Origin: an uncultured Acholeplasmataceae bacterium
GTDB lineage: Bacteria; Bacillota_I; Bacilli_A; Acholeplasmatales; Acholeplasmataceae
NCBI GenBank assembly: GCA_927439925.1
Contig: CAKMKF010000071.1
Coordinates: 1 to 44,045 of the forward strand
DNA: 44,045 bases
Direction of reading: 5' to 3'
Positions within the stretch are counted from its first letter, which is position 1. Each line of letters starts with the position of its first letter. A model generated the notes under the pieces. It was not told the DNA's origin. It did no database searches and saw nothing but the letters and a program-made list of their open reading frames with translations. Shown here in pieces: positions 3,486 through 11,773 of the stretch. The translations under genes were made by a program, and so were the position numbers.

Positions 3486-4928
3486 ATGATCTATGATTAC
3501 GTAATAATTGGTTCAGGTATTATTGGTTCTTGTGTCGCAAGAGAACTATCGAAGTATCAAACAAAAGTCTTAGTTTTAGAAAAAGAAAATGATGCTGCGA
3601 ACGGTCAAACCATTGCGAACAGTGCGATTATCCATTCAGGCCACGATCCAAAGGAAAATACACTAAAATCAAAGCTATGTGTAGAAGGTAATAAAATGTA
3701 TGACAAAATGGAAAGTGAATTATCAATACCACTCTTAAGGACTGGTGGTTTTGTTGTTGCTAGAGGTGCTGATGAAGAAAAACTGCTTGAATCCTTATAT
3801 CAAAGAGGATTAAGTAATGGTGTTTTAGATATGTCTATTTTGAATTTTGATGAGGCTAAAAAACTTGAACCACTGTTAACTAAAGATGCTACTAAAATCT
3901 TATCTCTTCCCTCTACTAAGGTCACATATCCATGGGAAGTAGCTTTTGCATGTTTAGAAAATGCAATTAAAAATGGTGTTTCTTTTGAAAAGAATAGCGA
4001 AGTTACCGGTATAAAAAAAGTTGATGATATTTTCATCCTTGAAATTAATTATAAAACTCAAGTTCAAGCAAGAAATGTTATAAATGCAGCTGGTGTCTTT
4101 GCAGATCAAATAGCTTATATGATTGAAAAAGACATCAAATATCAAATTAAACCAAGAAAAGGAGAGTATCTAGTTTTAGATAGAAAAGCTAAAAATTTAT
4201 ATAATCACGTTCTTTATGCACTTCCAACAAGTCAAGGAAAAGGTGTCTTGGTTGTACCTCAAGTTCATGGAAATGTCTTAATTGGTCCTACTTCTTCACT
4301 TCTTGATGACAAATCATTAGTTTCTAATACATCAAGTGGTATAAAACAAATTCAAACAGACGTCAAAAGATTAGTAGATCATGTCCCTTATGAACTGAAC
4401 ATCAGAACTTTTGCAGGTATTCGAGCATCTTCAACATTTGAGGATTTTTATATAAAGGAATCAATTGAGTATAAAGGATTCTATCATGTAGCAGGTATTG
4501 ATTCTCCTGGGTTAACTGCAGCACCTGCAATAGCGAAATATCTTATAGAACAAGTCATCAGTGAGAAACTAATCAAAAATGAAAACTTTGATCCTATACG
4601 TTTGAAAAAGAAAACATTTTATAAGATGAAAGATGAAGAAATGAAAAAAGCAATTCAAGAGAATAAAGCGTATGGAAATATAATATGCAAATGCGAAAAA
4701 ATTACTGAAGCTGAAATCGTCGATGCAATCCATTCAACAATAGGTAATGATACCATTAAAGGAATAAGGAAACGCGCGCGCGCGGGAAGTGGGCTTTGTC
4801 AAGGTGGATATTGTGAGGGTTTAGTATTAAAAATTATTGCTAGAGAAACCAAACAACCACTTAATCAAATTAACTATTATAGTCTAGATACACCTATCTT
4901 AGTTAAAGAAACGAAGGTGAAATCATGA
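3486..4928 (+). CDS. FAD-dependent oxidoreductase, GlpA-like glycerol-3-phosphate dehydrogenase with C-terminal BFD-like [2Fe-2S] domain
   Basis: N-terminal YDYVIIGSGIIGSCVARELS FAD motif; C-terminal IICKCEKITEAEI...GSGLCQGGYC cysteine motif; operon with glpP and glpK. Confidence 0.85.
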   Translation: MIYDYVIIGSGIIGSCVARELSKYQTKVLVLEKENDAANGQTIANSAIIHSGHDPKENTLKSKLCVEGNKMYDKMESELSIPLLRTGGFVVARGADEEKLLESLYQRGLSNGVLDMSILNFDEAKKLEPLLTKDATKILSLPSTKVTYPWEVAFACLENAIKNGVSFEKNSEVTGIKKVDDIFILEINYKTQVQARNVINAAGVFADQIAYMIEKDIKYQIKPRKGEYLVLDRKAKNLYNHVLYALPTSQGKGVLVVPQVHGNVLIGPTSSLLDDKSLVSNTSSGIKQIQTDVKRLVDHVPYELNIRTFAGIRASSTFEDFYIKESIEYKGFYHVAGIDSPGLTAAPAIAKYLIEQVISEKLIKNENFDPIRLKKKTFYKMKDEEMKKAIQENKAYGNIICKCEKITEAEIVDAIHSTIGNDTIKGIRKRARAGSGLCQGGYCEGLVLKIIARETKQPLNQINYYSLDTPILVKETKVKS

Positions 4929-6181
4929 GAGTCGATATCGCGGTTATTGGTGGAGGTGCTGCTGGTTTATCAGCAGCTCTAGAAGCTTCAAAATCGAATC
5001 TAAAGATCTTGATTATTGAAAGAGAACTAGAATTAGGTGGAATATTAAACCAATGTATTCATACAGGTTTTGGTTTAGAAGTTTTTCATGAAGAACTAAC
5101 TGGACCAGAATATGCAGCTAGATTTATTGATCTATTAAGAGATAAAAACATAACTGTCATGCTTCACACAACAGTTGTTGATATCGTAAAAAATGAAGAT
5201 TTTGAAATTAAAACATCGAGTTTAAAAAATGGACTAAAAATTATAGAAGCAAGAGCAGTGATCCTATCAAGTGGTTGTTATGAAAGAACTCGAGGTGCAT
5301 TAATGATTCCTGGTGAAAGACCAAAAGGAATCATGTCTGCAGGAACTGCACAAAGATATTTAAATATAGATGGATACTTAGTTGGAAAAGATGTTTTCAT
5401 TTTAGGAAGTGGAGATATTGGATTAATCATGGCTAGACGAATGACTTTAGAAGGTGCTAAAGTTCATGGAGTTGCAGAAATTATGAGCCACTCTAATGGA
5501 CTGAACAGAAATATAGCCCAATGTCTAGAAGATTTTGATATTCCTTTATATCTATCACACACAGTGACAGATATTAAAGGAACGAACAGTTTAGAAGAGA
5601 TAACAATTTCTGAAGTGGATCAAGACTATAAACCTATAATCGGAACTGAAAAAGTTTTTAAAGTGGACACACTTCTACTCTCTGTAGGTTTAATTCCTGA
5701 TATTCAGTTATTTGAGTCATTATCGATAGAAACAAGTAAAATGACTAAAAGTGCACTCGTGAATCAACATTATCAAACAAATATTGATGGACTTTTTGTT
5801 TGTGGTAATGCACTCCATGTTCATGATCTTGTTGATTGGGTAACTAAAGAAAGTGAGCTCGTTGGATTAAAGGCTATGCATTATTGTCTAAATGAGCATC
5901 AAGTCATAAAAGATGAGAAACCAATTCATTTAGGACAATATATCCGCTATACTGTACCACATAAAATTGACTTTAATCAGTTAAGTGAACCTTTTGAAAT
6001 TTCATTTCGCAGTACAATAAAAATGGAAAAAGGTATTTTTAAAATTATTCAAAACGGAAAAGTGATTCGAACAAAAAAAGCGAAATATATCGCACCAGCA
6101 GAAATGGAGAAAATTTTGATCAAGCCATCTGATTTTCTATCAAAAGATGAGATATCTATCGAATTGGAGGAAATTATATGA
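4925..6181 (+). CDS. NAD(P)/FAD-dependent oxidoreductase partner of the GlpA-like protein
   Basis: MRVDIAVIGGGAAGLSAALEA, GCYERTRGALMIPGERP, second Rossmann VFILGSGDIGL; 4-bp overlap with upstream gene. Confidence 0.85.
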   Translation: MRVDIAVIGGGAAGLSAALEASKSNLKILIIERELELGGILNQCIHTGFGLEVFHEELTGPEYAARFIDLLRDKNITVMLHTTVVDIVKNEDFEIKTSSLKNGLKIIEARAVILSSGCYERTRGALMIPGERPKGIMSAGTAQRYLNIDGYLVGKDVFILGSGDIGLIMARRMTLEGAKVHGVAEIMSHSNGLNRNIAQCLEDFDIPLYLSHTVTDIKGTNSLEEITISEVDQDYKPIIGTEKVFKVDTLLLSVGLIPDIQLFESLSIETSKMTKSALVNQHYQTNIDGLFVCGNALHVHDLVDWVTKESELVGLKAMHYCLNEHQVIKDEKPIHLGQYIRYTVPHKIDFNQLSEPFEISFRSTIKMEKGIFKIIQNGKVIRTKKAKYIAPAEMEKILIKPSDFLSKDEISIELEEII

Positions 6182-6522
6182 AGAAAATGACTTGCATAGT
6201 TTGTCCAGTGGGTTGCCATTTGATCATTGATGAACATCTCAAGGTTTCTGGGAATAAATGCCCAAAAGGTGAAAACTATGCACTTATAGAGATGAAAGAT
6301 CCAAAAAGAGTATTGACTACTACTGTAAGAACAATCAGTTTATTAAATCCTCGTCTACCAGTAAAAACCAACCATCCTATACCTAAAAAGCTACTTTTTC
6401 AGGCACTTAACGAAATAAATGAAATTATCATCTCTAAAGATGTTAAAATAGGAGATGTAATCATATCGAATATTTTAAACACCGATACTGACATTATCGC
6501 AACAAAATCATTAAGTATCTAA
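6178..6522 (+). CDS. DUF1667 domain-containing protein
   Basis: 114 aa, MTCIVCPVGCHLII...VSGNKCPKGENYALIEMKDPKRVLTTTVRT; conserved position after the two oxidoreductases. Confidence 0.85.
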   Translation: MKKMTCIVCPVGCHLIIDEHLKVSGNKCPKGENYALIEMKDPKRVLTTTVRTISLLNPRLPVKTNHPIPKKLLFQALNEINEIIISKDVKIGDVIISNILNTDTDIIATKSLSI

Positions 6523-6528
6523 ATCTAA

Positions 6529-8037
<1,509 letters not shown>

Positions 8038-10443: not shown

Positions 10444-10743
10444 TTATAAGCTTACCCAATCTGGTGCGTCGTTTCCATCAAAATCTAAACTAACCCAATC
10501 TGGTGCATCGTTTCCATCAAAATCTAAACTAACCCAGTCTGGTGCATCGTTTCCATCAAAGTCTAAACTAACCCAATCTGGTGCATCGTTTCCATCAAAA
10601 TCTAAACTAACCCAGTCTGGTGCGTCGTTTCCATCAAAATCCAGGATTGTATTTGAAGATGAATTCATCTCAACTTGTTCTAAACCGATCTTGGCAAATA
10701 AAATTACTACAAAAATTAATGCGACAGTTACTAATTTTCTCAT
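10444..10743 (-). CDS. Candidate multi-copy peptide-pheromone precursor: hydrophobic N-terminus plus five tandem 13-aa repeats DFDGNDAPDWVSL
   Basis: MRKLVTVALIFVVILFAKIGLEQVEMNSSSNTIL followed by 5x DFDGNDAPDWVSL to the stop; RBS gggagg 8 nt before ATG 10743 (ORF track starts earlier, at 10779); divergent from HTH regulator. Confidence 0.75.
   Translation of the reverse strand: MRKLVTVALIFVVILFAKIGLEQVEMNSSSNTILDFDGNDAPDWVSLDFDGNDAPDWVSLDFDGNDAPDWVSLDFDGNDAPDWVSLDFDGNDAPDWVSL
10447..10641 (-). repeat. Five 39-bp tandem coding repeats
   Basis: Units 10447-10485, 10486-10524, 10525-10563, 10564-10602, 10603-10641; identical amino acids, several synonymous nucleotide differences. Confidence 0.97.
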
Positions 10744-10762
10744 GGCTAATGCCTCCCTTTTA

Positions 10763-10784
10763 CCTAATTGTATTATCAATTAGG
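10763..10784. promoter_or_regulatory. Inverted repeat flanking the putative -10 of the repeat-peptide gene
   Basis: cctaattg (10763-10770)-tattat-caattagg (10777-10784); minus-strand GATAAT at 10772-10777. Confidence 0.5.
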
Positions 10785-10794
10785 GTAAATGAAC

Positions 10795-10810
10795 AGGGCG
10801 TATATGTCCT
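10795..10810. promoter_or_regulatory. Putative regulator operator: 16-bp near-palindrome AGGGCGTATATGTCCT
   Basis: 6/8 Watson-Crick pairs plus two G-T pairs; overlaps the position of the -35 (10795-10800) 17 bp upstream of GATAAT. Confidence 0.45.
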
Positions 10811-10846
10811 ATTCGTACAAAAAAACTGGGAAACAGAGGTGAAAAT

Positions 10847-11773
10847 ATGAAATCTCAAGATTTATGTGGATATTTAGAGCGTTTACGTTCATCTAGAAAC
10901 ATTTCACAAGAAATCTTCACAAATGGAATAGTGTCACTTAGACAATACCGAAGATATCTCACTGGTGAATCTGATATCCCTTTTCAAGTTGCTGATAAAT
11001 TGTCAGAAAGACTTGGAGTTCAAACGATAAATTTACTTGGAGAAATTGAAGCTGCAAGATTTGAAGAAAAAAGAAAAGTTGACAAATTTTATAACTCAGT
11101 TGTAAATAATTCAAAAGATGATGTTAACAGTATGATCTCTTATTTTAAAAACCTTGAATTTATCGACCCAGAAAACAAAATTTTATTCTTGCATGGATTA
11201 TCACTATATTTGCTAATCACTGATCAAGCAACACGTAGTGTTACAGTTCAAGAAAATAAAGTGTTAATCGACTACCCATCGATACTAAAGCGAACAATTA
11301 TTACACTAAATGAGTTGGTCATTTTAAGTTCAATTTTAGATTACTCAGATGACTTTGATGATTCTCAAGAAATTTCAAATCGATTGAAGTCATTTTTGGA
11401 AAATCGATCCTTTGTTATTGGAGCTGGACATGAACCTATATTCAACTTGGTTTTATTTAGATTGGCTCGCTATTCTGGAAAGAATAATCTATTCAACGAT
11501 GTTATAAGTTATTGTACAATGGGAATTGACAGAAATCATTCGCATAAATTCTACTATCTTCTTGATTACTACTATTATTATTCAGCCCTATCTTACTATC
11601 GTTTAGGAGATATTGCAAATTATGAAGCTATGCTTGTGAAATGCTTTAATGTTTTGCAAACCGAAGGTAATCAAAAAAAGATAGAGAAATTCACTAATAT
11701 GATTAACGAAGATTTTAGTATAAATTTTAAAGATTTCGTTATCGGATATTATCAAAAAATGAATCAAGATTGA
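10847..11773 (+). CDS. HTH transcriptional regulator with TPR-like C-terminus, RRNPP (Rgg/PlcR/ComR)-type candidate
   Basis: N-terminal LCGYLERLRSSRNISQEIFTNGIVSLRQYRRYLTGESDIPFQVADKLSERLGV (Xre/Rgg-like HTH); about 240-aa helical C-terminus with TPR-like HKFYYLLDYYYYYSALSYYRLGDIANYEAMLVKCF; agaggtg RBS. Confidence 0.75.
   Translation: MKSQDLCGYLERLRSSRNISQEIFTNGIVSLRQYRRYLTGESDIPFQVADKLSERLGVQTINLLGEIEAARFEEKRKVDKFYNSVVNNSKDDVNSMISYFKNLEFIDPENKILFLHGLSLYLLITDQATRSVTVQENKVLIDYPSILKRTIITLNELVILSSILDYSDDFDDSQEISNRLKSFLENRSFVIGAGHEPIFNLVLFRLARYSGKNNLFNDVISYCTMGIDRNHSHKFYYLLDYYYYYSALSYYRLGDIANYEAMLVKCFNVLQTEGNQKKIEKFTNMINEDFSINFKDFVIGYYQKMNQD

Follow-up and report, generated by a model that had tools for sequence, protein, structure and literature searches.

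A divergent gene pair in the 44,045-nt stretch of Acholeplasmataceae DNA analysed here (the window) very probably encodes a self-contained RRNPPA-type peptide signalling module, a conclusion reached without binding, cleavage, secretion or expression data. The precursor gene (10743–10444, minus strand) encodes 99 amino acids, MRKLVTVALIFVVILFAKIGLEQVEMNSSSNTIL followed by five copies of DFDGNDAPDWVSL that run up to the stop codon. It begins with a hydrophobic export-type N terminus, MRKLVTVALIFVVILFAKIG (10684–10743, minus strand), which is kept in homologues; here and in the homologues this feature was judged by inspection only, with no signal-peptide predictor and no secretion data. Tandem Repeats Finder (TRF) places the five 39-bp units at 10447–10641 on the minus strand (195 bp, period 39, 5.0 copies, 94% matches, score 341); the only other tandem array in the window is far weaker. 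The regulator, or receptor, gene (10847–11773, plus strand; 308 amino acids) lies 103 bp away. All of this, from the export-type N terminus and five identical 13-aa units to the divergent neighbour, is exactly as an earlier sequence-only reading had described it, and the ribosome-binding site it had noted is GGGAGG (10752–10757, minus strand), 8 nt before the ATG. That reading had proposed a quorum-sensing system, which receptor fold and gene pairing now strongly support on computational grounds; peptide binding, processing and density dependence remain inferred. No Rfam RNA family was found within the window. Elsewhere in it (3486–8037), open reading frames resemble a glycerol catabolism cluster (FAD oxidoreductases and a glycerol kinase-like protein), by reading only.

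The circuit we propose builds on what was observed: the fold of the receptor, its pairing with the precursor gene, selection acting on the units, the operator, the geometry of the promoters and the recurrence of targets. Its other steps are inferences, namely export, cleavage, re-import by Opp, binding of the peptide, activation and dependence on density. In RRNPPA systems a small propeptide, encoded right next to the receptor, is exported by Sec or PptAB, and the mature peptide returns through Opp and binds the TPR-type helical domain of the receptor. The precursor would leave the cell, with Sec export inferred from the hydrophobic N terminus, and extracellular cleavage of its tandem units would release multiple copies of a single short peptide with a DF..x[GD]xP[ED] core. 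An oligopeptide transporter may then re-import the peptide. The window's genome has genes that such steps would need: four OppA-type proteins, whose use here is inferred, two M50 proteases and one S26 signal peptidase. Inside the cell the peptide is predicted, from fold and pairing, to bind the neighbouring regulator in its helical C-terminal domain. A candidate ligand of the window regulator is LDFDGNDAPDWVS or a shorter core, without binding data; in Peloplasma aerotolerans the candidate signal peptide is LDFHNSGNPEYEE. The regulator would bind AGGGCGTATAYGYCCTAT and activate the precursor gene in positive feedback, a step for which sites and spacing are seen and binding and activation inferred. 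It may activate in the same way a small dispersed regulon of Band-7/SPFH, exported 182-aa and AAA ATPase genes.

An N-terminal helix-turn-helix (HTH) domain is common to RRNPPA receptors except Rap. In the window regulator this part spans residues 1–65 (10847–11041, plus strand), marked by an HTH_3 profile in relatives and by higher conservation: identity to the closest orthologue is 97% in the HTH part versus 83% in the rest of the protein. AlphaFold2 modelled the regulator with a mean pLDDT of 91 from a family alignment of 42 sequences, and a Foldseek search of the PDB returned the PlcR–PapR–DNA complex first (3u3w, E = 2.5e-7) and ComR next (5jub, E = 8e-6). The 50 listed matches are RRNPP-type, including also Rgg2, Rgg3, PrgX, ElrR, NrpR of Streptococcus salivarius and RapF, at 10–16% identity and moderate TM-scores of 0.26–0.58; 4ryk, a putative Listeria regulator, is among them and was not placed further. 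The proposal of an RRNPP-type regulator with an N-terminal HTH thus held when modelled. The TPR-like C terminus, also proposed, stood on fold and not on sequence profile: no TPR family passed its cut-off, and only one of 15 family members gave a weak TPR_8 match. This domain assignment therefore rests on the predicted fold, which matches PlcR, ComR, Rgg2, PrgX and RapF. HTH_3 matches 12 of the 15 members, with the window protein below the curated cut-off; Pfam and NCBIfam found only a weak HTH in it, although the structural model and its PDB matches include this part. Across Pfam, NCBIfam and PDB sequences we detected no significant full-length similarity to Rap, Rgg, ComR, NprR, PlcR, PrgX or AimR, only HTH-level matches. 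Of the solved RRNPP-type regulators, only ElrR of Enterococcus faecalis (5v5t) gives a marginal sequence match, in the HTH (E = 0.007–0.03); unlike that region, the C-terminal domain has no significant sequence match and is matched by fold only. HTH-level matches together with 10–16% structural identity indicate a protein that is RRNPPA-like and outside the named subfamilies. Its length falls within the 250–500 amino acids spanned by RRNPPA receptors (PMC10075063).

Between the divergent genes lies a putative operator, AGGGCGTATATGTCCTAT (10795–10812, plus strand), for which there are no binding data. It is kept in orthologues and found genus-wide; in several species it is a perfect palindrome, AGGGCGTATACGCCCT, and in Acholeplasma it reads ACACGACATATATGTCGTAT. 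The window's genome holds four exact copies of AGGGCGTATATGTCCTAT against about 4e-5 expected at an assumed 33% G+C. Pattern-based searches found sites in 19 of the 20 genus genomes, the 19 that carry the regulator; G037 lacks both, and a reversed control pattern had no sites in the genus genomes. Home and remote sites share an ATGACC variant in G030 and G042, and site variants likewise match within each of G022, G023, G024 and G025. Across 61 sites, which include both home and remote ones from species related to each other and so are not independent, a TANAAT-like −10 element peaks at a single offset, 22 nt past the operator (mean match 4.93 of 6, versus about 1 to 3.3 at other offsets), and most sites show this fixed spacing. 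At the precursor gene the probable −10 box at this offset is TACAAT (10767–10772, minus strand).

The operator lies just upstream of the −35 position and keeps a constant spacing to the −10 box, an arrangement that is also seen at promoters activated by ComR (PMC4072589) and that suits an activator. These features argue that the palindrome sites form an activator regulon, with binding by the regulator and activation both inferred. The sign of the peptide effect does not follow from them. The free regulator might itself repress or activate and be switched off by the peptide, as in AimR and Rap systems; both signs are known among RRNPPA receptors (PMC11343458). A second dyad, CCTAATTGTATTATCAATTAGG (10763–10784), lies over the precursor −10 region and suggests further control. 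It recurs in most genus orthologues, its role is unknown, and no other copy was found in the window's genome at up to three mismatches. Set against the operator position and the −10 distance, we regard this opposite sign as unlikely without dismissing it, and retain peptide-dependent activation as the working reading.

The remote operator sites in the window's genome lie at three genes, one for a Band-7/SPFH membrane protein (C205), one for a 182-aa protein of exported type (C152) and one for an ATPase of the AAA_15 type (C12). Band-7 recurs most often among the targets, in 12 genus genomes, with one copy apparently disrupted; others in the genus encode DUF2691-like, radical-SAM (L139, G034:C63; L148, G040:C73), large secreted CBM96-containing, trypsin-like and NA37 proteins. 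PADLOC found two operator-linked genes that resemble anti-phage proteins, NsnB/AriA-like (E = 1.6e-31) and PDC-S60 (E = 3e-24), at L043 (G000:C12) and L154 (G043:C34), which suggests that some species place defence under density control. Five genomes of genus g10 have a remote site upstream of a HAD-like phosphatase gene, named by reading. At these loci (L212, L213, L216, L217 and L220) about 130 nt between the operator and the phosphatase gene are conserved, have no Rfam match and end in a terminator-like GCCCTTTTT, with a tmRNA on the other side; this stretch is possibly a regulated small RNA. Acholeplasma (g2) yielded no firm remote target, its best site matches being at the home locus.

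Regulator homologues occur in 43 of 88 family genomes and in 19 of 20 genus genomes; in a class-wide sample of 397 genomes, profile search found them in 67. Among the named carriers are Peloplasma aerotolerans, Acholeplasma laidlawii, A. granularum, strains MO-XQ, zrk7 and zrk2, and many Acholeplasmataceae, Mollicutes and Izemoplasmatales metagenome-assembled genomes (MAGs); the window's own genome is an 81% complete MAG. No homologue was found in the 300–900 kb genomes of genus g11, which we infer to be phytoplasma-like. A phage arbitrium-type origin is not supported: viral contigs in the scan lacked a relative of the regulator, and the flanking genes are conserved and chromosomal.

The expectation that homologues would be paired with small exported-type ORFs was met: by our count in one genome scan, a divergent ORF of this kind accompanies the regulator at 37 of 43 assessable loci, leaving out four more that were truncated or incomplete. 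The same pairing appears in the family and class samples; the scanned sequences are related by descent, so these counts are not independent events. This pairing also bears on whether the precursor is instead a repeat peptide exported for a structural, adhesive or antimicrobial role and controlled by a regulator that senses another ligand. Exported repeats can indeed be surface or antimicrobial products, and other exported proteins appear to be under the regulator's control. Yet the single-unit Acholeplasma precursors, at 55–58 amino acids, are not large enough to make a repeat polymer, the fold of the regulator is that of a peptide receptor, and the two genes have been kept together over large divergence; we consider a structural or antimicrobial role improbable and read the precursor as the source of a signal. 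Separately, a paralogue of the regulator (35% identical) occurs at L002, L068 and L091 and, in the window's genome, at G000:C204:4885-5790. It is divergent from a conserved 56-aa ORF without a hydrophobic leader, whose unit-like core, KFSDVGIPDIVS, might serve as a leaderless or internal signal; export is thus not universal.

Within the window array, the five units differ pairwise by 32 synonymous and no nonsynonymous changes (pS 0.45, pN 0), which indicates that each copy is under selection for one peptide. Pooled over 28 precursors, the differences are 1416 synonymous versus 280 nonsynonymous, and unit identity is 98% within genes versus 43% between species. Synonymous divergence within the arrays means that they are not freshly copied DNA; chance is excluded, since the units are the same as protein while differing synonymously, and orthologous loci in other species carry their own, different arrays. 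Unit number ranges from one, in Acholeplasma, to ten (L195). At L004 and L046 (HGW-Tenericutes-2) the precursor frame is shifted within the array, and assembly error could not be distinguished from real loss. Arrays share the core [LIV][DG]F..x[GD]xP[ED], or, in longer form, [LIV][DG]F[DE][DN]x[GD]xP[ED]x[VI]. Its spacing is constant while linker length varies, from which we infer that the core is the signal. The motif was not seen at L090, the most distant of the 37 paired loci. Each species has a unit sequence of its own, uniform among the copies within a gene, which makes a species-specific signal probable. The suggestion that the repeats form an acidic Ca2+-binding surface peptide, prompted by the resemblance of the window's DFDGND to a DxDGxD loop, can be set aside almost entirely, as units elsewhere read GFRNSGLPE, DFANSGTPE and DFHNSGNPE, and between species F, P and their spacing are kept (F and P near-invariant) whereas the acidic positions and DxDGxD are not.

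Among known systems, ComR/ComS of streptococci shares the receptor fold. In Acholeplasma orthologues the operator core GACATATATGTC is like the ComR-box TAGTGACATATATGTCTCTA (PMC5131891). The streptococcal promoter reads GACA N4 TGTCCTG N20 TA (PMC4072589, PMC5131891), and here too the box stands at a near-fixed distance from TATAAT, with one base more than the N20 that follows TGTCCTG in ComR promoters (PMC4072589). ComS is short, single-copy and PptAB-exported, without repeats in 394 cases (PMC9765709); in contrast, the Acholeplasma-type precursor is longer, of exported type, present with 1–10 unit copies and divergent from the receptor gene. The best fold match is to PlcR/PapR, from the Bacillus cereus group, which also has an exported precursor beside the receptor; PlcR is about 12–14% identical to the window regulator. 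Its operator, the PlcR box, presumably differs from the window palindrome. Repeats occur in some PlcR propeptides, and in Bacillales systems the pheromone gene lies downstream rather than divergent (PMC9765709). Rap3T and Rap105 of Bacillus phages are similar in having several pheromones per exported Phr precursor, with the pheromone regions most conserved (PMC11343458); unlike the HTH-bearing window regulator, Rap acts on proteins. The earlier reading took tandem copies to be untypical of bacterial pheromone genes, which the literature contradicts: as many as six pheromone copies have been described in AimR, NprR, PlcR and Rap systems (PMC9765709), and experiments have been done on tandem Phr precursors, with one to four copies (PMC11343458), against up to ten here. 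The multi-copy idea is accordingly not new.

What is new is the subfamily in Acholeplasma-type Mollicutes, in which arrays reaching ten copies are common and the two genes diverge around a ComR-like box, together with the predicted regulon. We found no link of Acholeplasma to RRNPP-type or peptide-pheromone signalling in the open-access papers searched; subscription literature and preprints were outside our scope. The three RRNPP surveys compared here do not mention Acholeplasma, Mollicutes or Tenericutes.

If the module operates as proposed, the Acholeplasma group would gain a quorum-sensing language whose receptor, ligand, operator and regulon are predicted and could be tested at once in the cultured relatives Peloplasma aerotolerans and Acholeplasma laidlawii. 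The natural series of one to ten units, with almost exclusively synonymous variation within genes, would let one ask what drives precursors to accumulate copies, and how the code can shift without losing recognition. More tentatively, and with somewhat less than even confidence, we suggest that free-living, wall-less relatives of Acholeplasma have, as a basic feature, a peptide language specific to each species, which the smallest genomes of the family would have lost. In it, tandem pheromone arrays, identical copy by copy, may feed an autoinducing, ComR-like switch; at high density this would turn on membrane and secreted functions together, along with anti-phage-type ones in some species.
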